Shown here piece after piece: positions 1 to 57,734 of a stretch of DNA of 64,000 nucleotides. The position numbers and the translations under genes were made by a program. Positions within the stretch are counted from its first letter, which is position 1, and each line of letters begins with the position of its first letter. The notes under the pieces are model-generated. The model made no database searches. It was not told the origin of the DNA and saw only the letters and a list, made by a program, of their open reading frames with translations. This stretch comes from Loxodes magnus (taxonomy: Eukaryota > Ciliophora > Karyorelictea > Loxodida > Loxodidae), in the NCBI GenBank assembly GCA_946699065.1, contig CAMPDV010000917.1:1-64000 (forward strand). Direction: 5' to 3'.

Positions 1-3000
1 AAACTGAAATTACTCTTCTTTTCTTACTTTTTTTACTTTACTTTTAAAACAACTACTTACTCTTTATAACTCTTATCAAAGCTTCAACACTTAAAAACTG
101 AAATTACTCTTCTTTTCTTACTTTTTTTACTTTACTTTTAAAACAACTACTTACTCTTTATAACTCTTATCAAAGCTTCAACACTTAAAAACTGAAATTA
201 CTCTTCTTTTCTTACTTTTTTTACTTTACTTTTAAAACAACTACTTACTCTTTATAACTCTTATCAAAGCTTCAACACTTAAAAACTGAAATTACTCTTC
301 TTTTCTTACTTTTTTTACTTTACTTTTAAAACAACTACTTACTCTTTATAACTCTTATCAAAGCTTCAACACTTAAAAACTGAAATTACTCTTCTTTTCT
401 TACTTTTTTTACTTTACTTTTAAAACAACTACTTACTCTTTATAACTCTTATCAAAGCTTCAACACTTAAAAACTGAAATTACTCTTCTTTTCTTACTTT
501 TTTTACTTTACTTTTAAAACAACTACTTACTCTTTATAACTCTTATCAAAGCTTCAACACTTAAAAACTGAAATTACTCTTCTTTTCTTACTTTTTTTAC
601 TTTACTTTTAAAACAACTACTTACTCTTTATAACTCTTATCAAAGCTTCAACACTTAAAAACTGAAATTACTCTTCTTTTCTTACTTTTTTTACTTTACT
701 TTTAAAACAACTACTTACTCTTTATAACTCTTATCAAAGCTTCAACACTTAAAAACTGAAATTACTCTTCTTTTCTTACTTTTTTTACTTTACTTTTAAA
801 ACAACTACTTACTCTTTATAACTCTTATCAAAGCTTCAACACTTAAAAACTGAAATTACTCTTCTTTTCTTACTTTTTTTACTTTACTTTTAAAACAACT
901 ACTTACTCTTTATAACTCTTATCAAAGCTTCAACACTTAAAAACTGAAATTACTCTTCTTTTCTTACTTTTTTTACTTTACTTTTAAAACAACTACTTAC
1001 TCTTTATAACTCTTATCAAAGCTTCAACACTTAAAAACTGAAATTACTCTTCTTTTCTTACTTTTTTTACTTTACTTTTAAAACAACTACTTACTCTTTA
1101 TAACTCTTATCAAAGCTTCAACACTTAAAAACTGAAATTACTCTTCTTTTCTTACTTTTTTTACTTTACTTTTAAAACAACTACTTACTCTTTATAACTC
1201 TTATCAAAGCTTCAACACTTAAAAACTGAAATTACTCTTCTTTTCTTACTTTTTTTACTTTACTTTTAAAACAACTACTTACTCTTTATAACTCTTATCA
1301 AAGCTTCAACACTTAAAAACTGAAATTACTCTTCTTTTCTTACTTTTTTTACTTTACTTTTAAAACAACTACTTACTCTTTATAACTCTTATCAAAGCTT
1401 CAACACTTAAAAACTGAAATTACTCTTCTTTTCTTACTTTTTTTACTTTACTTTTAAAACAACTACTTACTCTTTATAACTCTTATCAAAGCTTCAACAC
1501 TTAAAAACTGAAATTACTCTTCTTTTCTTACTTTTTTTACTTTACTTTTAAAACAACTACTTACTCTTTATAACTCTTATCAAAGCTTCAACACTTAAAA
1601 ACTGAAATTACTCTTCTTTTCTTACTTTTTTTACTTTACTTTTAAAACAACTACTTACTCTTTATAACTCTTATCAAAGCTTCAACACTTAAAAACTGAA
1701 ATTACTCTTCTTTTCTTACTTTTTTTACTTTACTTTTAAAACAACTACTTACTCTTTATAACTCTTATCAAAGCTTCAACACTTAAAAACTGAAATTACT
1801 CTTCTTTTCTTACTTTTTTTACTTTACTTTTAAAACAACTACTTACTCTTTATAACTCTTATCAAAGCTTCAACACTTAAAAACTGAAATTACTCTTCTT
1901 TTCTTACTTTTTTTACTTTACTTTTAAAACAACTACTTACTCTTTATAACTCTTATCAAAGCTTCAACACTTAAAAACTGAAATTACTCTTCTTTTCTTA
2001 CTTTTTTTACTTTACTTTTAAAACAACTACTTACTCTTTATAACTCTTATCAAAGCTTCAACACTTAAAAACTGAAATTACTCTTCTTTTCTTACTTTTT
2101 TTACTTTACTTTTAAAACAACTACTTACTCTTTATAACTCTTATCAAAGCTTCAACACTTAAAAACTGAAATTACTCTTCTTTTCTTACTTTTTTTACTT
2201 TACTTTTAAAACAACTACTTACTCTTTATAACTCTTATCAAAGCTTCAACACTTAAAAACTGAAATTACTCTTCTTTTCTTACTTTTTTTACTTTACTTT
2301 TAAAACAACTACTTACTCTTTATAACTCTTATCAAAGCTTCAACACTTAAAAACTGAAATTACTCTTCTTTTCTTACTTTTTTTACTTTACTTTTAAAAC
2401 AACTACTTACTCTTTATAACTCTTATCAAAGCTTCAACACTTAAAAACTGAAATTACTCTTCTTTTCTTACTTTTTTTACTTTACTTTTAAAACAACTAC
2501 TTACTCTTTATAACTCTTATCAAAGCTTCAACACTTAAAAACTGAAATTACTCTTCTTTTCTTACTTTTTTTACTTTACTTTTAAAACAACTACTTACTC
2601 TTTATAACTCTTATCAAAGCTTCAACACTTAAAAACTGAAATTACTCTTCTTTTCTTACTTTTTTTACTTTACTTTTAAAACAACTACTTACTCTTTATA
2701 ACTCTTATCAAAGCTTCAACACTTAAAAACTGAAATTACTCTTCTTTTCTTACTTTTTTTACTTTACTTTTAAAACAACTACTTACTCTTTATAACTCTT
2801 ATCAAAGCTTCAACACTTAAAAACTGAAATTACTCTTCTTTTCTTACTTTTTTTACTTTACTTTTAAAACAACTACTTACTCTTTATAACTCTTATCAAA
2901 GCTTCAACACTTAAAAACTGAAATTACTCTTCTTTTCTTACTTTTTTTACTTTACTTTTAAAACAACTACTTACTCTTTATAACTCTTATCAAAGCTTCA

Positions 3001-3324
3001 ACACTTAAAAACTGAAATTACTCTTCTTTTCTTACTTTTTTTACTTTACTTTTAAAACAACTACTTACTCTTTATAACTCTTATCAAAGCTTCAACACTT
3101 AAAAACTGAAATTACTCTTCTTTTCTTACTTTTTTTACTTTACTTTTAAAACAACTACTTACTCTTTATAACTCTTATCAAAGCTTCAACACTTAAAAAC
3201 TGAAATTACTCTTCTTTTCTTACTTTTTTTACTTTACTTTTAAAACAACTACTTACTCTTTATAACTCTTATCAAAGCTTCAACACTTAAAAACTGAAAT
3301 TACTCTTCTTTTCTTACTTTTTTT
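1..3324. repeat. 94-bp satellite array, 35 identical copies
   Basis: The unit repeats with a period of exactly 94 bp: the AAACTGAAATTAC start recurs at 1, 95, 189 and so on to 3291. I see no differences between copies until the last partial unit breaks up near 3325. The window begins inside the array, so its full length is unknown. The T/C-rich plus strand has no coding frame, since 94 is not a multiple of 3. Perfect identity over 3.3 kb implies very recent amplification or strong homogenisation. A centromeric, subtelomeric or other structural role is possible but nothing here proves it. Confidence 0.97.
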
Positions 3325-5340
3325 CTTCACTTTACTTAGAAATCGTATCTTGCTTATTTATTCAAACTTTTTATATTTGAGATTTTGCAATTTCATAAAA
3401 AAGCTTAGCAACATTATTTTTTTTTACTTTTCTTTTTCGCTTTTCTAAGAAGACTTATTTACTTCATCTTTTCAAAATTTTGTTATTTATTATTTAAAAT
3501 TTTCTTAGTGTTCTCTAGTCTTTTTATTACTTTTCATAATTCTCTTTTTCACATATTCATATCACTTTATTTTAACTGATGTTCTGTTTTTTTTGCCCTT
3601 TTATTTTTCTTCACTACTCTCATAATTCAATTAATTTTTAGCTGATTTTTTTTTAATACTTTCAAATTATTCATTAATTTGTTTTTTATATTAATTTGTT
3701 TCTTTTCTTCAATTTTCTATTTTTTTTCATATTTGTCTTTTCTTTCTTTCTTTTTTTTTCTAAATTTATTTTGTAAAAATTCTTCGTTTTATTTTTATCT
3801 TTTTTTCTATATAAGTGCATTTTTTAGTTTTTTTATTTACAAAAATATATTAAATTTTTTTAAATCAAATCACTTTTTTTCTTTTTTATTTCAACTAATG
3901 TTTTTTTTAACTTATCAGATTTATCTTTTTAAATACAGAATATCACATGAATTGTTTTTTTAGATATATTAACTCTTTTTTTAAACTTTGTAAATTTTTT
4001 TTAATTAAATGTTACTATTTTTTTTTAAGTTTTTTTTTTCTGCGTTTTCTAGAGCTATAAATAACCTTTTTAATTTATCAAAAAAATTTTTTAATATTTG
4101 TTATAAATTACTCCATTACTTGTTTACTATTTTTTCAAATTGTTTTTTATCCAAAGTCTTATCTTGTTATTCGTCCCAACTTCTCCTGAAGTTCTAAACT
4201 CTTACGTCAAAAAGGCATTTTCACTTTTTATCATTTTGAAAACATTTTTGTTTCTTTCAGATATCTTTTCATTCATTAAATGAATAAAAATTCGTTTTTA
4301 AAGCTCTTGTTTAAAAGTATTTTAAAGTTTATTCCTTCCAAAAAAAGTTTTGTAGTGTAAAAAGCTGTTTAAAAAAACAAAATTATATCTTTCACAATTT
4401 AAAGCTGAACATTATCTTTTTCTCTTTTATTAACTTTAAAAATAAAATAAAAATTTCATTACCCAAATAAAAAAATTTATCACGACCCAATTCAAAAAAA
4501 ATTAGCACAACCTAAAATCAAAACATTTCGAAACCAAAATCGTAAATTTTATCTGCAATTTTTTTATTACCATTTTTTCTCAAAACCCTTTTATATTTTG
4601 AAAATTTTTTTGAAAATTTTTTTGAAAATTTATACCATTCTGACCTTTATTCATCCCGATTTCCCTCAGTTTGTTCCGTCCGAAAAAAGTTTTGCAGTGT
4701 AAAAAGCTGAGCAAAAAAACAAAATTAAATTTTTCACGATTTAACGCTTTAAATACTCTTATTCGCCTTTCATTTAACTCTTAAAATTAAAAAAAATACC
4801 AAAACCCAATTCTTAAAATTTTTATCACGAACCAAAATCGAAAATTTTTAAATCAAAAAAACAAAAGCTTGCAAAACCAAAATCAAAAATCAAAACTTTC
4901 AAATCCCAATTAAAAATTTTCAAAACTAAAACTAAAATTTTCAAAACCAATATCGAAACCAATATCTAAATTTTCAAAACCAATATCGAAATTTTCAAAA
5001 CCAATATCAAAAGTTTTCAAATCCAATATCAAAAAATTTCAAAACCAAATCCAAAAAATTTTTTTATTCCCATTTTTTAAAAACCCTTTTTTACTTTAAA
5101 ATTTTTTCTTAAAAAAATTTATTCCTTTCTGACCTTCTACTTATCCCGAAATCCCCCAGCTTGTTCCGTCCCAACTCAGCCCTATAGTGTAAAACGCTGA
5201 GCAAAAAAGTCTTTGACGTTTTTCGCCATTTTCAGGCTTCTATCTAATGAAATCTCAATCTGCTGCCCATTTATTATATAGTTTACAAAATTTTACCTAT
5301 CGTAAAAACACATTATGCTCACTTGCATATAGTAAAAATG
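3325..5340. repeat. T-rich then diverged long-repeat region
   Basis: No gene is supported. 3325-4200 is very T-rich. Three diverged copies of one module follow, centred near 4325-4400, 4670-4760 and 5155-5225. Each carries a TTCCGTCC-like start, then GTGTAAAAAGCTGAGCAAAAAA or a variant. The second and third are preceded by similar CATTTTTT...CCCTTTT and CTGACCTT...TCCCG blocks about 490 bp apart. Between 4900 and 5060 a short TTTTCAAAACCAATATC motif recurs. Small open frames at 3679-4197 are low-complexity Phe/Leu strings and are not called. Confidence 0.6.
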
Positions 5341-5974: not shown

Positions 5975-6745
5975 CATTATAGTATTAGCCATTATGCAAT
6001 TCTAAAATGATAAGCCATAGTCTGCATATACCTTGTTCCAGTCAGTTTACTAAATAATTGTTGATAGATTTGAACTTACCTGTTACTAGTTATTAGTATC
6101 TATTCCATTCAATATCCTTCCTATATTCCATCTTCGAATGTTGTAGTCTTTTGATTAAGGTTAACTTCAATAACTTCCATTACTTGATACCAACCATTAA
6201 TTGTCACTAGATAATGATAAACTACCCACAGTGTCCGTATGACCCAATAATGTACAGATACACTATCCATTATTGATATTTCAGATTCTTATACTCTTGT
6301 CATAAGATCCAGATAAGATATACTTGTTGTTATTCGAGAATATTACCGAAAAGACAGAATCAGTATGTCCCGATAAATTTTGGTACATTGTTATGTTCTT
6401 GAGTTCCATAAACGAATAGTTTCGTCATGAGATCCAGATCATGATTTAAGCGGAATCACTAGATATAGCCACAGATAATACATATCTAGTGTGACCACTC
6501 ATGGTCTTACAGGTACCTGTCTTGATGTCCCATAGTCTCACCGTCTTATCTACACTTCCCGATACGATGAACTCTGAATCACTGGATATAGCCACAGATC
6601 GTACAGAATCTAGTGTGACCACTCATGGTCTTACAGGTACCTGTCTTGACGTCCCATAGTCTCACCGTCTAATCTGCACTTCCCGATACGATGAACTCTG
6701 AATCACTGAACATAGCCACAGATCATACAGAACTAGTGTGACCAC
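5975..6745 (-). pseudogene. frameshifted WD40 tail of the RING/WD40 gene
   Basis: Reading down the minus strand, at least five more WD40 units follow the gene's first blade. They have a 126-bp-like period and phrases such as [25 protein letters not shown] and DETIRLWN. Keeping them in one frame requires single-base corrections near 6847, 6613, 6442 and 6385. The first two cancel each other. None coincides with a plausible GT...AG intron. TGA sits at the blade Trp in SIRI-W-NINNG and at the V-W-SVAMF position, which fits TGA=Trp rather than random stops. The tail is either decayed or affected by assembly indels; the nearly intact 5' half argues against a high error rate. Confidence 0.75.
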
Positions 6746-8275
6746 TCATGGTCTTACAGGTACCTGTCTTGATATTGTAAAGTCTAAGAGTAGTGTCATC
6801 ACTTCCCGATACGATGAACTCTGAATCACTGGATATAGCCACAGATATACAGAATTAGTGTGACCACTCATGGTCTTACAGGTACCTGTCTTGATATTGT
6901 AAAGTCTAAGAGTATTGTCAAGGGAAGCAGATACTATTAAGTTAGCATCTGGAGAGATGGCCACGGAAGTGACTGAGTCTGAGTGACCAGTGAGTATGTG
7001 AGGGTGTTCAGTGATTATGGAAGAGAGATTAGTGTTGGATAGGTCGCAGTTAATAAATTTGGTGTTTCTTAGATTGGTTGATGAGAGATTTGAGTTAGCG
7101 AAATTACAGTTGGTGAAGGTTGTGTCCGATAAATTAGAGTTAGTTAATTCAGTGTTCTGGAAGTTTTGATTGGTGAACGCGAAGTTCATGTAGTTTAAGA
7201 TTGTTAGGGTGTTTGAAGCTACTTATGCTACTCCTTATTGAGATTTACATAACTGGATTATCTAACTCAACTTTTAATGTATTTATTAATCTGCCACTTA
7301 TGATAGATGTAACAGAATTTAAACCTAATCAGTTAATCCTGGTTTGCTTAGAGGACCTTGCTTTAACATTACTAAATTTACATTCTCTTGCTTTAATTGA
7401 TTCAACAACTGCTTTAGTTTTTCAAACGTTAGATTTGTGAAATCCTAGATTATAAACTTGCTCATATTTTATTACTCTTGTTTTTATATTTAGATCTAAA
7501 CTTCAGGCTATATTGTAATGCTTGCTGCTTAACAAATCTCATTCACTACGTTGACTTGCTTGAAATAGTTTTGAATTAGCATCTCTGCCTCATTTAAATT
7601 TAATTACTAGCCGTTAGAATTCTAATTTAAATAACTACATACTTTGAACATACATGATTGAACAATAATTCCTAAATTTTGGATATTCATTTGCTAACTC
7701 TAACTACTTTTCAATTCATCAATCTCACGCTAGATTGAATTAAATTCTTATTGCCCTAGTTTTTATTAGTATTAACCTGTTGATTATTATTAAAATTCAC
7801 TTGCAGCTTACAACTTAGACAAACGTTTCAGTAAATTCTTGATCTTATTATTAGTAACAGCAATCTAATCAGTTAAACTCTTGAGTATCTACTGATGCGA
7901 TATGGCCTATATACTCTACATAAATTATGAGCTGCCTTAAACAACTTCTTTTATTTCATTATGGTAATTTTATTTCAAGACTTAATATCCTTACAACCAT
8001 TGGTACTACTCTTGAAGCTTTACTTAATCAACAATTTAAATCTATTAATGTCTTGATATTTACTACTACACTTGCTGTTAAACTACATATCCTTATAACT
8101 ATTCAGGCTGAATGTAGTAAACTTTGTTGTGTTATAAACACTTAATTTCTTTATAAAATTAATAAACCGTTTTAAGACAAATTAAACATGAAATACAACC
8201 ACAAGGTAATTGCTTAGACACTCTCTCGTCTTAATCGAATTGCTTTTTACAGTTAGGACACTGATTGTTATCCAT
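6746..8275 (-). CDS. RING finger/coiled-coil/pentapeptide/WD40 protein
   Basis: Probable E3 ubiquitin ligase scaffold. The start is ATG at 8275, beginning MDNNQCPNC. A RING-like zinc site is visible: C6, C9, C25, C27, C30, C33, C46, H49, with the third pair as PCGC instead of PCGH. A Gln-rich coiled-coil region follows (roughly 60-340), using many TAA/TAG codons as Gln. A conserved linker (VASNTLTILNYMNF) leads into pentapeptide-like repeats (about 365-415, of the TNSNLSDTTF type). The first WD40 blade is HILTGHSDSVTSVAISPD...LRLYNIKTGTC. As read, the frame gives 509 aa and ends at TGA 6746-6748, but only after a one-base slip near 6847 in the second blade. The natural protein should run on through the WD40 units below 6746. 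No GT...AG intron is needed in the 1.4 kb of good frame. RING and WD40 domains together suggest substrate-recognising ubiquitylation; that function is inferred. Confidence 0.85.
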
Positions 8276-8870
8276 TTATAAAGATTAAAAAACAATTTAG
8301 TATATAGAAACTAATTATATTGAAATAAAGATTGATAAAGTATTTTTATTATTTAAAAATTAAATTTAAAATTTAAAAATTTAAATTAACGAAATATTTA
8401 AATATTTTTAAAGGAAAGAAAATTAAACAAATGTAATAAAAAAAACCTAAAAAATAACAAATTAAAAATTCAAACTAGAAAAAAATGAATTTTCTGCAAA
8501 TCTTTTAGCTTTGAAAAAAATGTAATTATATAATATTAAAAAATTATTATAATAATGACTATACATTAAACATTTTAGTATGATGGTTAAAAAAAATATA
8601 CAAGTGATTTTGAAGAATGAACAAATCATAACTAAAAAAAATTAGAAATTAATTAATCTAAAACAAATTTAGACAGTTATTCCACGAAAAAAATGATTAA
8701 AAAAAATATATATAAGAATTTAAAAAAAATGACTTAAGAAATAAAAAAATGGTGGACAAACTAAAATTATTTTTATTTAGCTCATAAAAAATAAGAGTAA
8801 GCATTAAACATCTATAATTACATCCACATCATCTTAAAAATAATTTTTTTAATAAATAATAAATATGGTT
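8276..8870. other. AT-rich spacer, nothing recognised
   Basis: This is the upstream region of the RING/WD40 gene. It is A-rich on the plus strand, with no repeat, RNA gene or convincing coding composition. It presumably contains the gene's promoter, but no element can be named. Confidence 0.5.
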
Positions 8871-11120
8871 ATAGAGAACGTAGCACCTAGTTGGTACGCA
8901 GCTCTTTCCATATCTCAATATATATCCGTTTCTTCAAGTAAGCATTCAGGTAATAGAAATTCTTCTCTTATTAGTTACATATGTTCAACATTTTCCTAAA
9001 TGTTAAATCTTGTTCTTCTGTCTTCTATCTATCTACGTTTTATTGATTCTTTATTGCAAGCTTAATTTATTTTTTCTTACATATCTTACTAATTTTAATT
9101 TCTATTTATTTTCTTCTTGATCAAGATTTTATAAACTCATAAAAATTATCCAAATCTTGCTATATAGTCTTTTCCTATTTCTTTTGTTCATTCAATTTTC
9201 TTTTCTAAGTATACTTTTTTTCTTTTTTATAATATATCTTTGATATAATCTTTTATTATCAAGTCAGTTTTAGCTCTTTTTTACTCTTCTTAGGTTCTAA
9301 TGAATTTTTCGAATTTTGCCGTACCTCATATTATATCAAATAATTCCATTCCTTATCTCTCTACTCCTGTTGTTCTAAGATTTCAGATATATTATTATCT
9401 TTCTTCTTTGTATTCTGAATAGTTTTCTATGATATGCCTTTCGTTTTCTCTTGCCTCATTACAAAAAGGGCTTTTACTTGTCATAACTATGTGTCTTTCT
9501 TTTAAACAATCCTGGCTCCCATTACATCTCGTTCTTATTCTAAATATGTATCATTCTTCTTCTTTTCTATTTTTATTATATCTCAAGTAGTTGGGTGATC
9601 CTACTGCATATTCATCAAATCATGTTTTTCTATACCGTAATGTTATTATCATTTACTCCATTCTTTCTCTATCTTTTCTACGTATACTTTATATTCTTAA
9701 ACTGCACGATTAATGATTCTTCCCTTTTTAATTACTTTTACCATCATCTATAAATATTTTTGTCCTCAATTCTTAATTCTAATTTTATTGCCATGCAATA
9801 TTATTCAAATATAAAGTTCTCTTCTTTACAAAAATCGAACAATGAGTCTTTTGTTTTTCCTTTATTTCCTATTAATTAGCCTCTTAATCTCAACGCTTTT
9901 TGTCATAGGCAATGTTTAAATTTCATAAACTGCAATTCGTGTTCTAACATCTCCCTTTGCACTTAAAAAAGGACATCTATGATTGTTCATAAAGATCTTC
10001 TCTATATTATTTCTAAATTTAAACTTTAAACTTAAAGAGTTTTTATACATCTATAACTGCAAGAATTGCTTCCTTCAATTATAGACATTAGTAAATTTTT
10101 TTAATTACTTTTAATTATAATCTTGATCTTAACAATTTTAAATTACTTTAGTTTAATCTCATCTTTTATTTCTTCCTTTTATGCTTTTTCCATTTCTAAT
10201 AATTCTAGTCTTCTTGACATAAGTTTCTTGTGAAATATTTTTTAATCTAAATATCCTAAATAAGACTTATGAAAGGAGTTCATAAAACCTTAATCATATA
10301 ATATAAGTCATCTTAAATCATAATTTCCAATCTTTTACAATAGTAAATATCTTATATTAGAATAGTATATACATTTAAAAATGTGCTCGAATGTATCATA
10401 CTCTCCACACATACGGTAGGAATATCTATAGGATAGTGATGATCTTAAAGATCTTTTCGAAAGCTAAGGATTGGGTTCTAAATTAAATATAACGATAATT
10501 TCTTGTCTAAATTCTTTGTTCAACTTAGTGTAAGTAATTACTAGAAATTGATTAAGATTACTAAACTGCTCAGTATAAATTTTAGCTTTTTCATTTTCTT
10601 AAACTTTTGAGTATCTGTTTTATAGAAATATTTTCTATATTATCTCTAATTGCTCCATTACTTATTTTCCTAGAAATTATTTGCAATATGGGATCACTTC
10701 TGCCTCATAACTGAAAATTGAGCTTAGGAAAGTTTTTAACAATATTTTTGAATTATATGGTGTTAATCCCTTATTCATTGTTATTTTTCTCGGTATTCAT
10801 GTTTACATCTTTTATGCTGCTACTAGTCTATTCTCCATTTGCTTGTCAAAACTGATGTTTTATTTTATTATATGACCTAGGTATAAAAGTTCGTTTCTCT
10901 TTTGATCCTTTAACTGTCCATCTCGATAATTTATCCAGAATATTGTTCATCAAAATATTATTTTAATAGCTAAATAAAATAAGACCCTCATCGCTAGTAA
11001 ATTTACTATCTTCAATTTGAATCTCAGAATTTTATATATTGAATATTTGGCCACTTTAATTTGCTATATTATTCGAGATTTTTAATTTCTCAAATCATAT
11101 TTCACTTTAATTGATAAAAA
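8871..11120 (-). mobile_element. decayed non-LTR (LINE) retrotransposon, RT and C-terminal part
   Basis: On the minus strand the fragments run in LINE order. A damaged catalytic box reads TSDEGLILFS (expected YADDGLILF) near 10990, followed by NILDKLSRWT. Then comes LGHIIKQNISFDKQMENRL, the usual post-palm block. Near 9900 is GDVRTRIAVYEIQTLPM. Near 9450-9560 are YIFRIRTRCNGSQDCLKERH and SPFCNEARENERHIIENYSEYKEER-type residues, the Zn-binding C-terminal C..C...H...C box with first and last Cys altered. Family knowledge: this CCHC box closes the ORF2 of many LINEs. Several frameshifts are present and TGA occurs at two probable Trp sites (EEE-W-YIF, RKT-W-FDE). The element ends at the 3'-tail motif at 8872. 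The 5' part (ORF1, endonuclease) was not found. It is a dead copy. Confidence 0.75.
8872..8912 (-). repeat. LINE 3'-tail hairpin motif, copy 1
   Basis: Minus-strand reading: GAGCTGCGTACCAACTAGG then TGCTACG...TATAACCATATTTATT. It sits exactly at the 3' end of the decayed LINE. ACC pairs with GGT around a 4-5 base loop, and the flanking GCG/CGC can extend the stem. Related copies are at 16787, 16898 and 37164. Confidence 0.7.
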
Positions 11121-46300: not shown

Positions 46301-49300
46301 TAAAGTTATCTTTACTAAGTATTAAAATATCTATGTAATAAAAGCTTATTTCCAATGTAGCTTTAAACTCACTAAGGTTACTAAAGAAAAAAATCCAAAA
46401 AACTTATTTATCCAATTTAAAATAACTAAAGCAAATACCTTTTGTCATAAAAAAGAGTGCAAACTAGGATTTAAATATAAAAGCTTTCTATTCAAATTTA
46501 AATTTCATTACTACAACTTATAACAATAGATAGGGCAAAAAACATTCAACATAATTTAGTTAAATGACAATACTCTTAATATAACGAAAATCCCTAATAA
46601 ATAGGAATTAATTAACTAACTAAGCATTTCATTCACTATTTAAGCGAAAAAGAATATACTTAATTATACCATTTTTAGATCTATTTTAGTTGAAAAATTA
46701 CTAAAATAAATTTATTAAACTAGATAAACTTTTGTCTTAGCTTCTTGCTAAAAATATAATAAAATAAGCAGTTTAATAATTATTCTATTTCTTCTCTTTG
46801 AAAAGTGAATTAATGGACAATAATTAGAATCTCATATATTTTTCATTTCATCAATACAAATTATCCTTACTATACTGGCTCTATTTAAGTTAGAAACACT
46901 TACTCTAATTTTAAATTAATACTAAGAAGATTGAATTTAAAGTCTCTCTTTAGTGTTAGAATGAAAATAATAATCTTAATAACTTTTTTACTATCTGATT
47001 AAAGAGTTTGAAATATGCTTATAATATTAAATAGAGATATAAATAAAGAAAGTGCATCTATTTATACTTTTAGTTATAGTTATATAATCTCTAACTTATT
47101 TAATAACTAAAGCTATTAATTCACTTATCCCTTCATAGTTAACTATAATCCTTTTATTTATAGATACTGACTAATTTTCTTTTTATGTTTTAGAGTATAA
47201 AATGCAGGAATAATATAGCTTCTTATTTATTAAATTGGAAAATAAAGGATTATTTATACAGGCTACAATTTAGTATTAATAGATGTAAATTGTCTGTCTA
47301 ACTTGTTAGCTTAAGAGTAAGTTAAAGCTTAACCCTTTAATACACTTCTCTATTTTTAGTCTAACTTAAGCAAGTCTAAAAAATGCTTTAATGCTATTTA
47401 TTTGTAAATAATGAAGCTAGTTAATTATAGGTTAAAAGTAAGGAAATACTGAGTAAATAAAGTTCAAATGATATTAAAAAGGAATAAAGTTAAATTGTTA
47501 GCTAGAAGATATAAGTAATTTTAAATGTGATAAGTTGAGATAATTAGAACTATAGGATTGTAAGAGATATGAATAAGTATGAGTTGATTAGAGAAATATT
47601 AGGGGTGGGATAAGAATATTAGGATATAATATACCCATTACAAGTAATATTCATTAAATTAACTTCATAAGCAATTTATGATAAATAGGCTACTATTAAG
47701 AAATCCCTTATTAATTATAAAATAGTAAAGAAAGATAATTAGAACTATCATATTATTATCTTAAAATTTGTCTAGGAAAATAAGAAACTATGTTCATTAA
47801 TATTCTTAAAGAAAGACCCAATTCATTAAGGAATGGCAAAAGCTATTAGAAGAAGCTTCAAAGTAAAAACCAAATAAAAAGATTATCAATTAGATAAAGC
47901 ATTTGCTATTATAATTTTTCAACGTAACTAGTTGAATATTTCTAAAGCTTAGTAAAAAGATAAATAAGGAAAAAGAATGTAAGAAGGGACATCATATATA
48001 AAATAATTGTTTTGTGAATTATGCAATTAAGGTTTAAAACCAATTCATATAATTTTCTAGATTTTAACTAATTTAATATCTCTAATATTTAAGATACAAG
48101 TAAATAAGATTATCTACCTATCTCAAAGGTGAATAAAATTAAAAAATTTAGCTAAAGTAGAGATATAAAAATCCTTATGATTTGATAATTTTAATTAAAT
48201 AGTTTGCTATTGTATAAATATATTAATTAATTGAAGAACTCTACATTATAATTTAATGTGATTAAGTATAAGAGATATCTTTAATCTCTTAATTCCAAAG
48301 AAATTCCCAGTATAATTTTAAGAGATATTAAAAATAGGTAGAATAAGAGTCGGTATATCTTTTATAGACTGAAGATCTAAAACTTAATGAAAGTTGATGA
48401 ATTTATTTAAGATTGTAATGTTTGATGTAATTATCTTAAGCAAAAACAAATAAAAAACTAAGTATTCATATAATAAAATCCAACAGCTATATGGTTATTT
48501 TCATTATAAAATTATTTCCTTATAAATCTTATTTAGAATGGTCTGTAAAATATTTATTTATTTATGCTTCATAGAGATTAAATATTTACATACCAGTTAC
48601 TCATATAACCCTTTTATTTTAAATAAATAAATAATTAAAAAACATAAAATGGACTCTACCCTTACTTCTGTTTAAATTATCTACTTTTTATTAAATATTC
48701 CTCTCATTAATGTGACTATCTAGTTAGATAACACATGTTGATATCGGTTGTTAGTTTATGCAGTCATTATTATTAGAAAGCATCATACATTCTAAGTATG
48801 ATTTTATCTTAAGATATAAGATTTGGCATTTACTATTCATAAAAGTCTTTCTTCTAGCTGTAATCATGAGCTAACTTTTTTGTATTAGCTTCTAAATAAA
48901 TCAAATTCTCTCTTCAATCTATTAACTTTAAATTATCTTAACTTTTCATAAGGTCTCTCATCTATGAAGTATAGGCATCGACATTATATATAATTCTTCT
49001 AAATAGCAAAATAAACTAAAAAAGGCTAGCTTAGAAGAAAGGCCTTAATAAAATAAAATAATTAAGGAAGCAAAATAATCCTTTAGAAAGCTACTAATTA
49101 TACTAAAAGTATATCCTTCCTACTATAAGTAAAAGTTTTATAAATAGATAACTTTTAATAGTATACAAAAGCTATGATAGTAGCAATATTGATTGCACTA
49201 AAGTTCTAAATGATAGACTAAATAAGTATAGATAGATAGAAAGTGTTTATATTAGATGGATTCAAATGAATAAAATAATAGCTAAATGTTTACCTAAGTT

Positions 49301-49463
49301 AATATATGAATTCTTAACTTAGAAAAGCTTCTGAATAATAGCTTTAGACTAGTTAATAACTATCTAATTATTAATAACTTATTTATTTTCTTAAGGTTTT
49401 GTTTAGAATTAAACAAAAATAGATTTAAACTATTTGCTTTAATTCACTTCCATTATAATAAAT
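46301..49463. other. AT-rich tract; possible 5' part of the REJ-like gene
   Basis: Minus-strand phrases such as SNLSEFKATLEISFYYIDIL near 46300-46400 look like extracellular protein and may be upstream exons. 46500-49440 shows nothing I can name. The promoter of the plus-strand gene at 49464 should lie at its right end. Confidence 0.35.
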
Positions 49464-52400
49464 ATGGCTGAATCTAACAGGTGCAGCTCATGCTTAATCC
49501 ATTTCGACTCTTAAATACGAATTCCCGTAACTCTTCCTGATGGACATCAAGTATGCCAAATTTGTATTCTTGAAGAATACTCAAAAGAGGGTTCTAATCA
49601 GTGCCCAAAAAGAAACTGTAGAAAAGTTTCATTCGATGATCCAAAAAATGTAATAAACTAAAACAACTAATCAAGTGAAAGTAAATAAGAATTCAAATAA
49701 CTTCGACTTGAAGAAACTAAAATTGAGATATCTTATTAGCAAAAACCAAAACTAATAAAAGTCAAGATTTTAAGTGAAAATGAAGAAGAAATAAATTTAA
49801 ATGTAGAGGAAGGATAAACAATTAAATAACTGAAATAAAAAGTAGAAAGATTAGAAGGAATTGACACTGATTTTTATGAACTTTATAGAGGATAAAAGGA
49901 ATTAGATAGTTAGCATAGAATAAATAAAATGGAGAATAAAGATGAAATTTAGCTAGTCTTAAAGTTGAAAGAATGTAATTAATATAAATTTAAGGATGTG
50001 AGATAATAAGATAAAATTTAGGAAGTAAATATTAAAAATAGGAAGTAATTAATCAAAATTAGTTTTTGAGATAATGACAAAATAATATGGTGAAAGTAAG
50101 AAAATTTAAAGAAGGCTAAAATGACTTCGTCAAAAGTTTGAAATAATGTACAGGAGGTAAATTTTAAAAAAGTGTGTAATATATTTATCAAAAGTTAGTA
50201 ATACTTTAAAAACTAGAAAGTAATAAATAAAATTTAAGAATGTAATAAAATAAATAAGATTGTAACAATATAAGAAAGGGAGTAAAAACTAAATTTAGAA
50301 TGTAAAAAATAAAGAAGATTGTAAAAAAATTATGTTAAGGTGGTAATTTAACAAACCAAGAAAGTAAATTATTTAATATATAGCAAGTAAAAAAAACAAA
50401 TAAAGGAAGTAAAAATTAAAATAAGATGGTATTTCTATTAAAAATAGAATGTAAGATATTTTAAATATTTATAGATGGTAAGATATTTTAAATATTTATA
50501 GATGGTGAGATATTTTAAACATTTATAGATTGTAAGATATTTTAAATATTTATAGAATGTAAGATATTTTAAATATTTAATAGATGGTAAGATATTTTAA
50601 ATATTTATAGGGAGTAAGATGTTTTAAATATTTATAGAGAGTAAGATATTTTAAATATTTATAGGGGGTTAGATATTTTAAATATTTATAGATTTTAAGA
50701 TATTTTAAATATTTATAGGGAGTAAGATATTTTAAATATTTATAGATGGTAAGATATTTTAAATATTTATAGGGAGTAAGATATTTTAAATATTTATAGT
50801 GTGTAAGATATTTTAAACATTTATAGATGGTAAGATATTTTAAATATTTATAGATTGTAAGATATTTTAAATATTTATAGATTGTAAGATATTTTAAATA
50901 TTTATAGGGAGTAAGATATTTTAAATATTTATAGGGAGTAAGATATTTTAAACATTTATAGGAGGTTAGATATTTTAAATATTTATAGGGAGTAAGATAT
51001 TTTAAATATTTATAGTGAGTAAGATATTTTAAATATTTATAGCGAGTAAGATTTTTTAAATATTTATAGAATGTAAGATATTTTAAATATTTATAGATGG
51101 TAAGATATTTTAAATATTTATAGAATGTAAGATATTTTAAATATTTAAAGTGGGTAAGATATTTTAAATGTTTATAGAGTGTAAGATATTTTAAATATTT
51201 ATAGGGAGTAAGATATTTTAAATATTTATAGATTTTAAGATATTTTAAATATTTATAGAATGTAAGATATTTTAAATATTTATAGGAGGTAAGATTTTTT
51301 AAATATTTATAGATTTTAAGATATTTTAAATATTTATAGAATGTAAGATACTTAAATATTTATAGGGGGTTTGATATTTTAAATATTTATAGATGGTAAG
51401 ATATTTTAAATATTTATAGAGAGTAAGATATTTTAAATATTTATAGGGGGTAAGATATTTTAAATATTTATAGATTTTAAGATATTTTAAATATTTATAG
51501 GGAGTAAGATATTTTAAATATTTATAGATGGTAAGATATTTTAAATATTTATAGGGAGTAAGATATTTTAAATATTTATAGAATGTAAGATATTTTAAAT
51601 GTTTATAGATTGTAAGATATTTTAAATATTTATAGAATGTAAGATATTTTAAATATTTATAGATGGTAAGATATTTTAAATATTTATAGGGAGTAAGATA
51701 TTTTAAATGTTTATAGAGTGTAAGATATTTTAAATATTTATAGGGAGTAAGATATTTTAAATATTTATAGATTTTAAGATATTTTAAATATTTATAGAAT
51801 GTAAGATATTTTAAATATTTATAGATGGTAAGATATTTATAATATTTATAGGGAGTAAGATATTTTAAATATTTATAGTGAGTGAGATATTTTTCAAATG
51901 TTTATAGAGTGTAAGATTTTTTAAATGTTTATAGAGAGTAAGATATTTTAAATATTTATAGTTTGTAAGATATTTTAAATATTTATAGGGTGTAAGATTT
52001 TTTAAATATTTATAGGGAGTAAGATATTTTAAATATTTATAGGGAGTAAGATATTTTAAATGTTTATAGATTGTAAGATATTTTAAATATTTATAGATGG
52101 TAAGATATTTATAATATTTATAGGGAGTAAGATATTTTAAATATTTATAGTGAGTGAGATATTTTTCAAATGTTTATAGGGAGTAAGATATTTTAAATAT
52201 TTATAGAATGTATGATATTTTTTATATTTATAGGGTGTAAGATATTTTAAATATTTATAGAATGTAAGATATTTTAAATATTTAAAGTGGGTAAGATATT
52301 TTAAATGTTTATAGAATGTAAGATATTTTAAGTATTTATAGATGGTAAGATATTTTAAATATTTATAGTGAGTGAGATATTTATAATATTTATAGGGAGT

Positions 52401-53045
52401 AAGATATTTTAAATGTTTATAGAATGCAAGATATTTCAAATATTTATAGAATGTATGATATTTTTTATTCAAAGTTTGTATTTAAAAACTATTATAGTTA
52501 GTATTTTTTTATTATTATAAGAGGGTATTAAATTACCTCAGGCGGTAATAATCTACTATAGGTATCTTTTTAATTTTTGATTGTAATAAATAATTATAAG
52601 ATGGTTTTGCTTTTATTGAAGCTAGTATTTTCTTATATGAGCTTGTATTGTTTTACCTAAGTTAGTAAGAAAATTATATAGAATGTAATATTATTTTTTT
52701 TTATAGGGGGTAATGATTGATTTGAAAAGAAAGTAATTCCTAATATAATGTATTAAAGAATGTTTAAGTTATTGTTAATTTTAGATTATTTATACTAGGT
52801 AATTTTTTCTATTTTAGGATGTAAAGAATTTAATGATAAGTAAATTTTTTATTATAGAGTGTAATTTTTGATATAAGCGGAGATTGATATAACATTTGAC
52901 CACTTTAAATATTTATCTTAAATTAAAGTTTTATTATTTATTAATTTTTGACTTAATTACTTTAGTTATTTTAAAGTTACTAATCATATTAACATTATAT
53001 TTTAAGATCTTTCACACTTTTTTCACTTTATTAACGAAAAATTGA
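49464..53045 (+). CDS. RING-like/ubiquitin-like protein with ~105 micro-introns
   Basis: The first exon (49464-50024, 187 codons) begins MAESNRCSSC. A RING-like zinc site is visible: C7, C10, H28, C31, C34, C47, C52, with the usual PCGH reading PDGH. A ubiquitin-like fold spans about 97-171: a beta-strand KPKLIKVKIL, EEGQTIKQLKQKVE as the helix, ELYRGQKELD, and DEIQLVLKLKE at the Ubl end. Many TAA/TAG Gln codons are used. If unspliced, the frame stops at TGA 50067. Splicing GT...AG segments from 50025 onward keeps phase 0. It yields FLRQWQNNMVK, then KVWNNVQECLKNIGNIVKQ, then about 75 single codons rich in Gly, Asn, Met, Ile and Trp, then NFLRAVSFQFLIMLLLNGKN and a basic stretch. The end at TGA 53043-53045 is uncertain. 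RING plus Ubl suggests ubiquitin-ligase or adaptor function. The exon 1 call is strong; the spliced extension is inference. Confidence 0.6.
50025..50450 (+). other. left block of diverged micro-introns with 3-base exons
   Basis: Seventeen GT...AG segments of 16-20 nt, all different inside: 50025-50041, 50045-50062, 50096-50111, 50157-50172, 50176-50194, 50198-50216, 50220-50238, 50242-50258, 50262-50278, 50282-50298, 50302-50317, 50321-50339, 50343-50360, 50364-50383, 50387-50405, 50409-50425, 50429-50447. Spacers are exactly 3 nt except two of 33 and 45 nt, which are also multiples of three. Spacer codons from 50173 on read C L K N I G N I V K Q E M N. Interiors are A-rich. Confidence 0.85.
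50451..52452 (+). repeat. 27-bp array: 24-nt intron-like unit plus variable triplet
   Basis: About 74 copies. The constant part begins GTAAGATATTTTAAAT and ends TTTATAG, 24 nt. The remaining three bases vary: ATG, ATT, AAT, GGA, GGG, AGA, GAG, TGA, CGA, TGG, AGT, TGT, GGT, TTT. AG is kept in essentially every unit. The 5' end is GT in nearly all (GTAAG, GTGAG, GTTAG, GTATG, GTTTG), once GC, and TT in about six copies where ATT precedes. With TGA as Trp the triplets spell a Gly/Asn/Met/Ile/Trp-rich tract. Because 24 is a multiple of 3, retained units would not shift frame. Confidence 0.95.
52453..52877 (+). other. right block of diverged micro-introns with short exons
   Basis: Sixteen or so GT...AG segments, T-rich inside and unrelated to each other, 17-26 nt: 52453-52474, 52478-52497, 52501-52521, 52525-52541, 52545-52561, 52583-52600, 52604-52621, 52625-52641, 52645-52661, 52665-52681, 52685-52706, 52710-52729, 52733-52758, 52762-52784, 52799-52817, 52840-52857, 52861-52877. 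Most are 3 nt apart. One exon is 21 nt. Two are 14 and 22 nt, together 36, so phase 0 is restored. Spliced reading: F L R A V S F Q F L I M L L L N G K N. Confidence 0.85.
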
Positions 53046-53903
53046 TTCCTATTAAGGAGATGTGTGAATTAATAATTTAGGTAATATTTTGATAATAGCT
53101 TTAGTTTTTTTTCCTGATGTATTAGATTTCTTGATAATAGTTCTTTGATTTTTAAAATATGTCTAGAATTTTTGATTTTTATTCTTTCTATTTATCTTTA
53201 AAATAGCTTCAGTAATTTTTGAATAGGAAGATAATATGTAATGATCTGATCTCCTCTCTATAAAATATGTGCTTAATGAATGATGAAATACTTATCTTAA
53301 ATAATAGTAAATAAATATGTTGTTAGTTAGTTTGATTCAGCCATTCTTGTAAATGTAATAAAGTGTTAAAGTGTTACTGCGACATAATTGCTCCTATTTT
53401 TTAAATTTTTAATAGATAATTACTTAATTTATAAGCTATAAAATGTAATAACATGATTAAAGCAGATGTAAGAATTTAGCTTATTTAACATTATTATTCT
53501 TATTATAAACTACTACTTCATTATTATTCCTTTTCATTACTAATATTATATCACACTATTCATTCTATACTTTATAACCCTATTTATATTCTAATTAATA
53601 TATTAACTACTTATTTTTATAACACCTATTTATTAATATCCTCTATCTATATCTTCTATTTTATTTAATCTACTAATATTATTAGTAAGATTTCTCTAGT
53701 TTAATACTATTAAGATGTAGTGTACTCTTAAACTAATTTATTTACATATCTTATGATTAACTTCTAATTTATGTCTTAATCAGAGTTATTTATTTCTATT
53801 ATCATTTCAAATCTTAAGTACACTCAAAAATTATTTCTGTCTTATTATATACAAAATTTTAATTATTACTCTGTAGAAATCAACTAAAATCAGTTACCAA
53901 TAA
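53046..53903. other. intergenic, AT-rich
   Basis: Between two plus-strand genes. T-rich; no named element. Confidence 0.45.
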
Positions 53904-55823
53904 ATGTCGCCAACAAGTGTAATTGATAAGGACAACTCTAAAGAGGTATTTTGATTTAAAAAATGAAACATAGCATAATATAAAAGTAAATATTATAAAA
54001 AATATAAACAAGTAACAGTCTGTTCTAGCTAAGCCTTTATAAATATAATAACAAAAGATCTGTTTAATTAAATTAAAAACATTATAATTTTTTTAATATA
54101 CGCTAAGAACATTTAATTATCACTCAAGAAAATTGTATAATATAATCCATCGTAGAGTAAATTTGAGTAAGGTTTAGATTATGAAATGAAAAGTAAAATA
54201 GAATATGAAAAATAGAAATATTAAAGACTTAGTTACAGAAAGTAAACAAATATTTCTATTAGTCTAATTTCCATTACGAAGCTTTATACATAGAAAAATA
54301 TAACAAAAAAGAGGTAAAATATATAAGAAACAAATTAAACTGAGCTTTAAGATAATTAATTCATTGTTCTATAAAATATTTATTATAGATGCATCAGATT
54401 TATCTAATAAAGTATACTAATAGTTACGAAAGAAGTTAAATGATATATTTGTATTAAAAGAACAAAATAGTAAAAATAGAAATTAAATATTTTAGAAGAA
54501 CTATATTTATGGAATTTACCTATAAAGAATATAAAATTGCAAGTTGTTTCTCTATGCAAATATTTAAAAATATTAAATCTTCACTGGATAAAATTGGAAG
54601 ACTAAAACTTAGCCTTTCTGGAAAATTAAAAAAGTTTAGAAAGCATTAACATAGATTACTCAAATAATATAACAGGGTTGTTTTTATTAGATTATTATCT
54701 AAATTTGAATTTAAAAGAATTATGTACTTATAGTAGGAATCTGAACTATAATATTCTTAAGCAATATCTATAATTAAGAGGAATGCAAATTGAAAATCTA
54801 AACAAAAACTGAAATTAATAAAATTATTAATTTATCCATTTATGTCCTAACTTGAATTAAATACAATTACTTAAGCTTTTAAATTTATCTGATCCACTCT
54901 TAGATAAAATAAATACCAGCAAATTAAAAAAAGATCTACTTTGAAGAAATTTTATTATCCTCTTAAGCTTTTTATAGCTTTTTCTCTTAATAATTTCCAA
55001 GTCTTTAATTTGCTAGACTAGTTAATTGTAAGAATTTTAATTAAATAAATTTAGAAAAGTTGCTATAAAACTCACTTAAGTTGGAAGCAATAAATTAAGA
55101 AAATTTGGATTAAATAAAGAAAGAAGATTATAAATTAATAGGAATTTATTGCTATAACTTAAAAAAATAATATTACAATCAAATAATTAGGATTTGAATG
55201 AAGAATTATAAATAATATTCTAAAAATACAGAAAATGCACTTAAATATAACCTAAAATAAAATAAATTAAAAAAGAAACTTTGGTGGATATTAGAGAAAG
55301 CTGCCAATTTTTATAAAGCTTTCATTTATCTGATTGCCTTGTTAATAGTTAAAATTTAATACAAGAAATTACTCAAATATTGTAATTAAATAGACTAAGT
55401 CTTGATAACTGCAATTTATTAAATACTGATATGATTGAGATAATAAAAGTATAGTAAAGATTAGAATATTTATGCTTATAAAGAAATGAAAAAATTACAT
55501 AATAAGCTTTTCCCCTTTAAGACGAATGTAATAAAGACTTTCCAATTTATAAGATCTTAAGAAATTTAGAGCTATAAGGTTGCAAATAAATAAATTAATA
55601 ATCAATTAAAAGCTTGAAGCGAAAATATAACAAAATTAAATTAAATTAAATTATGATGATAGCTATAAACATCAAGAACGAGATGAAATAGATTTTGAGT
55701 TATGATGCTTTTTAGAATGCTAACTTAAATAAACTACTTTTTATTTTATTTTTGCAAATTTATAAATTCACCTTTCTTAAAATTAATTTTCCTTTATTTT
55801 CTTAACTTCTAATTCATATTTGA
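53904..55823 (+). CDS. leucine-rich-repeat protein
   Basis: The start is ATG 53904 (MSPTSVIDKDNSKEVFWFKK). One frame runs 640 codons to TGA 55821 if internal TGAs are Trp. The N-terminal 190 residues are basic and helical. From about residue 197 LRR phrases appear: LNILEELYLWNLPI, LKILNLHWIKLED, IQLLKLLNLSD, LQLNRLSLDNCNLLN, QRLEYLCLQRNEKIT and ILRNLELQGCKQI. The last ones have the L..L.L..C..I pattern of cysteine-containing (AMN1/FBXL-like) LRRs. About five internal TGAs occur, for example LNKN-W-NQQ. Between 54925 and 55190 a second frame (FPSLQFARLVNCKNFNQINL) also looks LRR-like, so an indel pair there cannot be excluded. At the C-terminus an ATTAA pentamer run (55634-55653) may have slipped. 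Removing one unit gives YDDSYKHQERDEIDFEL and a stop at 55703-55705. Probable substrate-binding or scaffold protein. Confidence 0.65.
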
Positions 55824-57551: not shown

Positions 57552-57623
57552 TCCGCATTAGTCTAGTGGTTAGGATATTCGGCTCTCACCCGAAAGACCC
57601 GGGTTCAAGCCCCGGATGCGGAA
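57552..57623 (+). tRNA. tRNA-Glu (CTC)
   Basis: 72 nt. The acceptor stem TCCGCAT pairs with ATGCGGA. The D arm is GTCTAGTGGTTAGGAT. The anticodon stem TTCGG/CCGAA encloses CTCTCAC, giving anticodon CTC. The T arm is CCGGG-TTCAAGC-CCCGG. No intron. A TTTT run at 57627 can serve as the pol III terminator. Confidence 0.97.
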
Positions 57624-57661
57624 CTATTTTGTTATTCCTTCCAATTATATAAAATTAAAAA

Positions 57662-57734
57662 CGCCCAACGTGGGGCTCGAACCCACGACCACCAGATTAA
57701 GAGTCTGACGCTCTACCGACTGAGCTAGCCGGGC
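57662..57734 (-). tRNA. tRNA-Lys (CTT)
   Basis: 73 nt. The acceptor GCCCGGC pairs with GTTGGGC (two G-U pairs). The D arm is GCTCAGTCGGTAGAGC. The anticodon stem TCAGA/TCTGG (with a mismatch-tolerant pair) encloses CTCTTAA, giving anticodon CTT. The T arm is GTGGG-TTCGAGC-CCCAC. No intron. T-rich sequence follows on the minus strand. It is convergent with tRNA-Glu, 38 bp apart. Confidence 0.97.

Follow-up and report, generated by a model that had tools for sequence, protein, structure and literature searches.

The stretch considered here comprises bases 1 to 64000 of contig CAMPDV010000917.1 (C917) from the karyorelictean ciliate Loxodes magnus, and these 64,000 nucleotides (nt) are referred to below as the window. 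On the forward strand, an exon encoding a RING finger and a ubiquitin-like domain is followed by an array of 110 intron-like units (49975-52857), most of which begin with GT, end with AG and stand exactly 3 nt apart. The gene belongs to a multigene family, and copies from elsewhere in the assembly are used below to ask what is conserved. The array was recovered in two ways, by a chain search (104 units) and by a full parse in which donors may be mutated (110 units). By the parse, 20 units lie in a 5' outer part (49975-50447), 74 in a core (50451-52449) and 16 in a 3' outer part (52453-52857). The features are the following:

49464..49974, plus strand: exon 1 (RING finger and ubiquitin-like domain), an open reading frame from ATG, perhaps extending to 49997 if 49975-49994 is exonic
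49975..49994, plus strand: ambiguous unit 0, GT..AG, 20 nt, intron-like; the junction reads TGA if it is spliced
49998..50447, plus strand: 5' outer micro-introns, 19 here, 16-25 nt, with unrelated interiors and 3-nt exons (full parse)
50063-50089 (27 nt) and 50115-50135 (21 nt), plus strand: longer exons in the 5' outer part (full parse)
50090..50114, plus strand: 25-nt hybrid intron, the product of a deletion that took out three exons (12 nt of exon) and is common to five sampled copies
50451..52449, plus strand: core array, a 27-bp satellite of 74 units, each made up of an intron of 24 nt (GTAAGATATTTTAAATATTTATAG) and a 3-nt exon that varies (Tandem Repeats Finder and parse)
52453..52857, plus strand: 3' outer micro-introns, 16 in number, 17-26 nt plus one of 37 nt, exons mostly 3 nt (parse)
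52562-52582 (21 nt) and 52785-52798 (14 nt), plus strand: longer exons in the 3' outer part (parse)
52861..52877, plus strand: candidate last micro-intron, GT..AG, 17 nt, preceding the downstream region and not kept in all 12 copies compared there
48804..54150, no strand assigned: approximate extent of homology among more distant family copies (BLAST boundaries, several loci)

The spacing of the units is not a coincidence of base composition. GT..AG units separated by exactly 3 nt form runs of up to 15 (5' outer part) and nine (3' outer part). When each part was shuffled 2000 times with a first-order Markov model, no run exceeded four, a length reached in 2 of the 2000 each time. Other spacings (0-2 and 4-12 nt) yielded runs of two at most in the outer parts. 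Elsewhere in the window, no run of five or more was found on the plus strand, and the longest on the minus strand was two. The shuffles and the alternative spacings together rule out chance as the source of the arrangement.

Within the window core, the parse finds 3-nt spacers and AG acceptors in all 74 units. Introns are 24 nt long in 70 units, 26 nt in two, and 25 and 23 nt in one each. One unit type has been expanded here into a satellite, and the same core was found in 18 stretches from 16 loci. In every one of the 18, the three positions with the highest diversity out of 27 are those of the exon. Diversity at exon positions is about 0.2-0.8, and about 0.6 at most of them, whereas intron positions average 0.004-0.05, with 0.21 for the copy on contig C128. 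As many as 26 different triplets precede 2284 exact consensus introns, with AAT, GGA, ATT, ATG and TGA dominating; the order of the triplets is irregular, and duplicated blocks are apparent by eye. Neutral turnover of whole units should homogenise exon and intron together. The pattern suggests either that the codons have been diversified or that conversion has been restricted to the identical 24-nt blocks. C128 is the most diverged copy and has the oldest-looking core. There, all 28 exons were parsed as 3 nt, intron lengths range over 18-26 nt, and mismatches fall at 2 of 112 GT/AG positions versus 61 of 550 interior positions (P=0.001).

The family is large. Searches covered the whole assembly of 705,730,643 bases in 7843 contigs, which we infer to be the somatic, macronuclear (MAC) assembly of L. 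magnus; passages of the genome paper describe that assembly as 706 Mbp, of which 231 Mbp are low-complexity tandem repeats (PMC11441545). The 27-bp core is present on many contigs. The RING/ubiquitin-like exon gave at least 150 scored matches among 1446 first-look candidates, and the 3' outer part, searched with three queries, at least 40 among 343, 545 and 335 candidates, all of these match counts being lower bounds. For 37 of 40 places, paired by hand, 1,688 to 20,536 bases separate the gene start from the 3' part, and from these distances the core would hold roughly 23 to 720 units per locus (37 loci). Among the short cores are those of C476 and C2440, with about 23-26 units estimated in this way. 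Homology does not end sharply near 48804 or 54150. Of 317 inverted pairs, the 25 longest included no terminal inverted repeats, and a transposon with terminal repeats is accordingly disfavoured for the pairs listed. At one copy (L038), adjoining pieces of ribosomal RNA had been suspected from a motif; Rfam, at E values up to 0.01, did not find them.

For the comparison of copies, 40 additional 5' pieces were selected manually from the 150 scored matches so as to be varied, and 40 additional 3' pieces came from two lists of 40 scored places at full length. The 5' outer part could be parsed in 52 of 54 copies (47 complete and five with the shared deletion); L072, which lacks the anchor, and L080, which runs into a contig end, were excluded from the length and site counts. 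By a hand count on the alignment the deletion measures 63 nt relative to C306, and since this is a multiple of 3 it does not discriminate between a spliced and an unspliced reading. The 3' outer part was parsed in 51 of 52 copies, L093 being excluded for want of an anchor.

These copies also bear on the layout proposed in an earlier note on this DNA. The array it described is real and larger than the roughly 105 units claimed. Its start was placed at 50025; the copies move it upstream, as unit 49998-50021 varies in length among them (24, 19 or 18 nt), and 49975-49994, further upstream still, is likewise unit-like. The segment 50136-50153, read in that note as an exon of a spliced protein containing KVWNN, is 18 or 19 nt long across the 47 full copies, which is the behaviour of an intron. 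For the longer spacers the note gave 21, 33 and 45 nt, or values summing to 36, with phase 0 always kept. The parse instead finds spacers of 27, 21, 21 and 14 nt plus additional 30-nt gaps at mutated donors, and the 14-nt spacer at 52785-52798 breaks the phase after 52784. This last segment, ATTATTTATACTAG, does not differ among the 23 distinct tails (51 copies) although neighbouring introns vary; alternatively, it could form the last part of an intron of 37 nt.

In the outer parts, exon length is almost invariant. In the 5' part only 2 of 1181 exons deviate, while the 22 introns that follow unit 0 (408 nt) underwent at least 26 length changes in the same copies. The first 15 exons of the 3' part show no deviation in 765 comparisons, and its introns at least 14 length changes in the 51 copies. 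Intron borders are conserved as well. Variable sites make up 6 of 88 GT/AG positions versus 72 of 230 interior positions in the 5' part (47 copies, P=2e-6), and 5 of 64 versus 66 of 205 in the 3' part (12 copies, P=4e-5); with 51 copies the latter counts become 7 of 60 versus 71 of 176. Because the parser favours GT, AG, 3-nt spacers and template exon lengths, the 5' test was redone on a plain, splice-blind MAFFT alignment of 53 copies (without L080), with site categories taken from one copy and unit 49975-49994 left out of the column counts. Of the distinct gaps in this alignment, 30 lie in introns only, one in an exon only, one spans both and two fall outside; variable columns number 13 of 88 at GT/AG versus 95 of 232 in interiors (P=5e-6). 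Micro-exons 5-13 of the 3' part have variable sites at 6 of 38 positions, proportionally fewer than the interiors of the intervening introns with 59 of 142 (P=0.004). The outer intron lengths (16-26 nt plus the one of 37 nt) fit the published distribution for L. magnus, whose introns, as defined by RNA sequencing, have a mean of 19.3 and a mode of 17 nt, with 93% at or below 25 nt, according to passages of that paper (PMC11441545). Selection on the GT..AG borders is supported for the outer parts by these comparisons of copies. The earlier note had argued that unit interiors drift while GT, AG and the 3-nt spacing persist, and that splicing is what is selected; this holds for the outer parts across about 50 paralogous copies and does not carry over to the young cores.

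The first exon is a more conventional piece of gene. In 14 copies it contains no alignment gap, versus 17 gaps in the 414 nt upstream, and substitutions are conservative in its own frame only (11 copies, P=0.003); a synonymous test alone gave P=0.09. As it is gap-free across copies and its changes are conservative in frame, exon 1 is, on this evidence, coding. Both Pfam matches of the window copy fall below their cut-offs (ubiquitin 24.8 bits against 25.4, zf-C3HC4 17.6 against 21), whereas the C128 copy clears both (25.6 against 25.4 and 21.1 against 21, respectively). The Pfam matches of exon 1 include no leucine-rich repeat (LRR) family. In 12 exon-1 translations, the window copy and C256 carry aspartate in place of a RING cysteine (PDGH versus PCGH in the other ten).

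How the reading frame continues from exon 1 depends on unit 49975-49994. If it is exonic, every 3-nt exon would form one whole codon, as the earlier note supposed. If it is spliced, codons would be split 1+2 across the introns, and the first codon of the tail would be TGA, made up of the last T of exon 1 and the GA of the next exon. Passages of the genome paper give UGA as the sole stop codon of L. magnus and as also able to encode tryptophan (PMC11441545). The synonymous, conservative-change and TGA-junction tests used 45 of the 54 5' copies, in which all exon lengths equal the template (one further comparison used 44 distinct sequences), and the first junction was TGA in all 38 distinct tails among these 45. 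The unit itself is 20 nt long in the 52 parsed copies and 19 nt in L072, and this near-constant length leans towards the exonic, whole-codon frame. The spliced protein proposed in the earlier note corresponds to one of the two possible frames, and no test of amino-acid constraint singles it out.

Taken together, the comparisons of copies point to a family of RING/ubiquitin-like genes in which spliceosomal micro-introns have probably been multiplied as units of intron plus codon and are under selection for their removal. The spliceosome would excise each unit. Splice sites that flank introns only 3 nt apart are apparently too close for simultaneous assembly, and since such introns could hardly be assembled on at the same time, removal would proceed stepwise: each ligation would leave one more codon directly before the next donor (AG|NNN|GT), in what would amount to a 3-nt form of recursive splicing. 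The array would grow as units of intron plus codon are added by unequal crossing-over or slippage. Such expansion may be tolerated because a 27-bp unit adds one codon if it is spliced and nine if the 24-nt intron, which contains no TGA, is retained. Whether the satellite as a whole serves as spliceosomal introns, with up to several hundred 3-nt recursive steps building a hypervariable tail codon by codon, is a stronger proposal, for which we see an even chance.

Several observations weigh against the interpretation as multiplied introns. The bias of the parser is removed by the MAFFT alignment for the 5' part only. The young cores show no protection of exon length: in the pooled cores (211 distinct units), 16 indel operations fall in exons versus 79 in introns, against an expected ratio of 3:24. 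Within the window core, 6 of the 74 units have mutated donors (GT in 68, TT in five and GC in one, by the parse). The clearest degenerating core is the stretch from C894 (L029), which contains spacers of 2, 4 and 5 nt. Variable sites are commoner in the exons of the 5' tail than in intron interiors (58 of 110 versus 72 of 230, P=2e-4); in the first five exons of the 3' part they are about as common as in the accompanying introns (12 of 33 versus 27 of 77, P=1). In synonymous and BLOSUM permutation tests on the 38 distinct 5' tails no frame was significant, nor was any in synonymous and BLOSUM tests on 9 and then 23 distinct 3' tails. Downstream of the array, 12 sequences gave no coding signal in any frame. 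Finally, exon 1 of C306 (L024) contains an in-frame TGA (one of the 12 translations), which may encode tryptophan or be a sign of decay.

The absence of a detected amino-acid constraint in the 5' tail is also what would be seen if the array were transcribed and spliced but never translated. Under this alternative, splicing of 49975-49994 creates a TGA stop, and all later micro-exons belong to the 3' untranslated region (UTR). The unbroken occurrence of TGA at the first junction fits such an arrangement, as does the role of this triplet as the only stop of the code. We nonetheless think it unlikely. A UTR does not need the outer exon lengths that are kept almost without exception, and micro-exons 5-13 of the 3' part are better conserved than the introns around them. 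The length of 49975-49994 is nearly constant, unlike that of most of the other 22 units. Furthermore, TGA is also capable of encoding tryptophan in this code, and in a WD40-like gene of the window it stands at what we take to be a WD40 tryptophan position.

A second alternative would confine splicing to the outer units, with the core retained in the message and read as a nine-residue repeat whose variable residues lie at the former exon. The consensus intron, free of TGA and with a length divisible by 3, would permit this; 8 of the 18 core stretches have no indel at all, and each repeat would have one or two hypervariable residues at the variable triplet. Such a frame would be disrupted, however, by the window's four units (of 74) that measure 23, 25 or 26 nt, and in C128 six of 28 units differ from 24 nt, five of them with lengths that are not multiples of 3. 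Nor was any 3-base periodicity seen by eye in the substitution fractions along the 24 nt. Translation of a retained core is thus quite improbable.

It is more doubtful still that the array is an ordinary satellite beside a repeated pseudogene, its GT and AG inherited from one ancestral unit and unselected. A homogeneous core, a very large family, the exons of young cores that are unprotected from indels and the TGA in one of 12 exon-1 translations are all compatible with decay. This account, to which we give very little credence, does not fit outer units whose interiors are unrelated and yet retain GT, AG and spacing, conservation that is site-specific across copies, or an exon 1 that is gap-free with conservative substitutions. 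That the units are internal eliminated sequences removed from the DNA in macronuclear development, as the earlier note had suggested as an alternative, would suit a ciliate host and units so short and precise, but is scarcely credible given that the arrays persist in an assembly that appears to be somatic and that no extensive elimination is reported for L. magnus in passages of the genome paper (PMC11441545).

Other parts of the window were recorded as well. A 94-bp satellite (35.5 copies, 99% matches) occupies 1-3333 and has a strong strand asymmetry, with a GC skew of about -0.8. On the minus strand, 6200-8914 holds a gene whose start looks RING-like by eye and which also has pentapeptide and WD40 repeats, with a 123-bp tandem repeat among them. 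Two transfer RNA genes, tRNA-Glu(CTC) and tRNA-Lys(CTT), lie on opposite strands at 57552-57734 with 37 bases between them.

If the junctions of the array are true, about a hundred introns, and in some loci several hundred, would stand one codon apart in a single gene. Such genes would test the limits of splice-site pairing, exon size and splicing order, and they would show how introns can spread as satellite DNA while leaving the reading frame unharmed. Masking of tandem repeats during annotation could then hide genes. The family would also offer many copies of graded age in which to study how the spliceosome handles introns of 16-26 nt.

The components of this system are known. In the literature searched (titles, beginnings of abstracts and passages), no gene organised as a tandem satellite of predicted introns, each one codon from the next, was found, in agreement with the earlier note, which knew of none; the closest system there is the LRR family of Tetrahymena. 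Short introns of L. magnus and Stentor have GT-AG borders, as do the units here. Their length range is also that of the array, and the passages compared for L. magnus (PMC11441545) and Stentor (PMC9505925) describe no introns one codon apart or arrayed as a satellite. The LRR genes of Tetrahymena, as described in passages of PMC6564038, are tandem arrays of exons of exactly 90 bp with a uniform intron phase. They resemble the present family in being a huge, partly young ciliate family with an exact exon length, and in a number of units that varies, in their case by ectopic recombination (PMC6564038). They have conserved leucine positions, and the group III introns of T. thermophila measure about 257 bp (PMC6564038); unlike them, the present genes have 3-nt exons and introns mostly of 16-26 nt, and the repeat is nearly all intron.

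Three further systems provide partial parallels, as far as the sources compared describe them. In recursive splicing at ratchet points, a donor lies directly behind the junction after ligation, while here it would lie 3 nt behind; known ratchet points divide long introns, whereas here one codon would be added per step, tens to hundreds of times. Known micro-exons are as short as those described here, a few nt and down to a single nucleotide, and sit within ordinary genes rather than in tandem arrays. Lastly, tandem genomic duplication and introners create new introns by duplication, as is proposed here. In the Loxodes array, the duplicated unit is apparently a whole intron together with its codon, multiplied within one gene.

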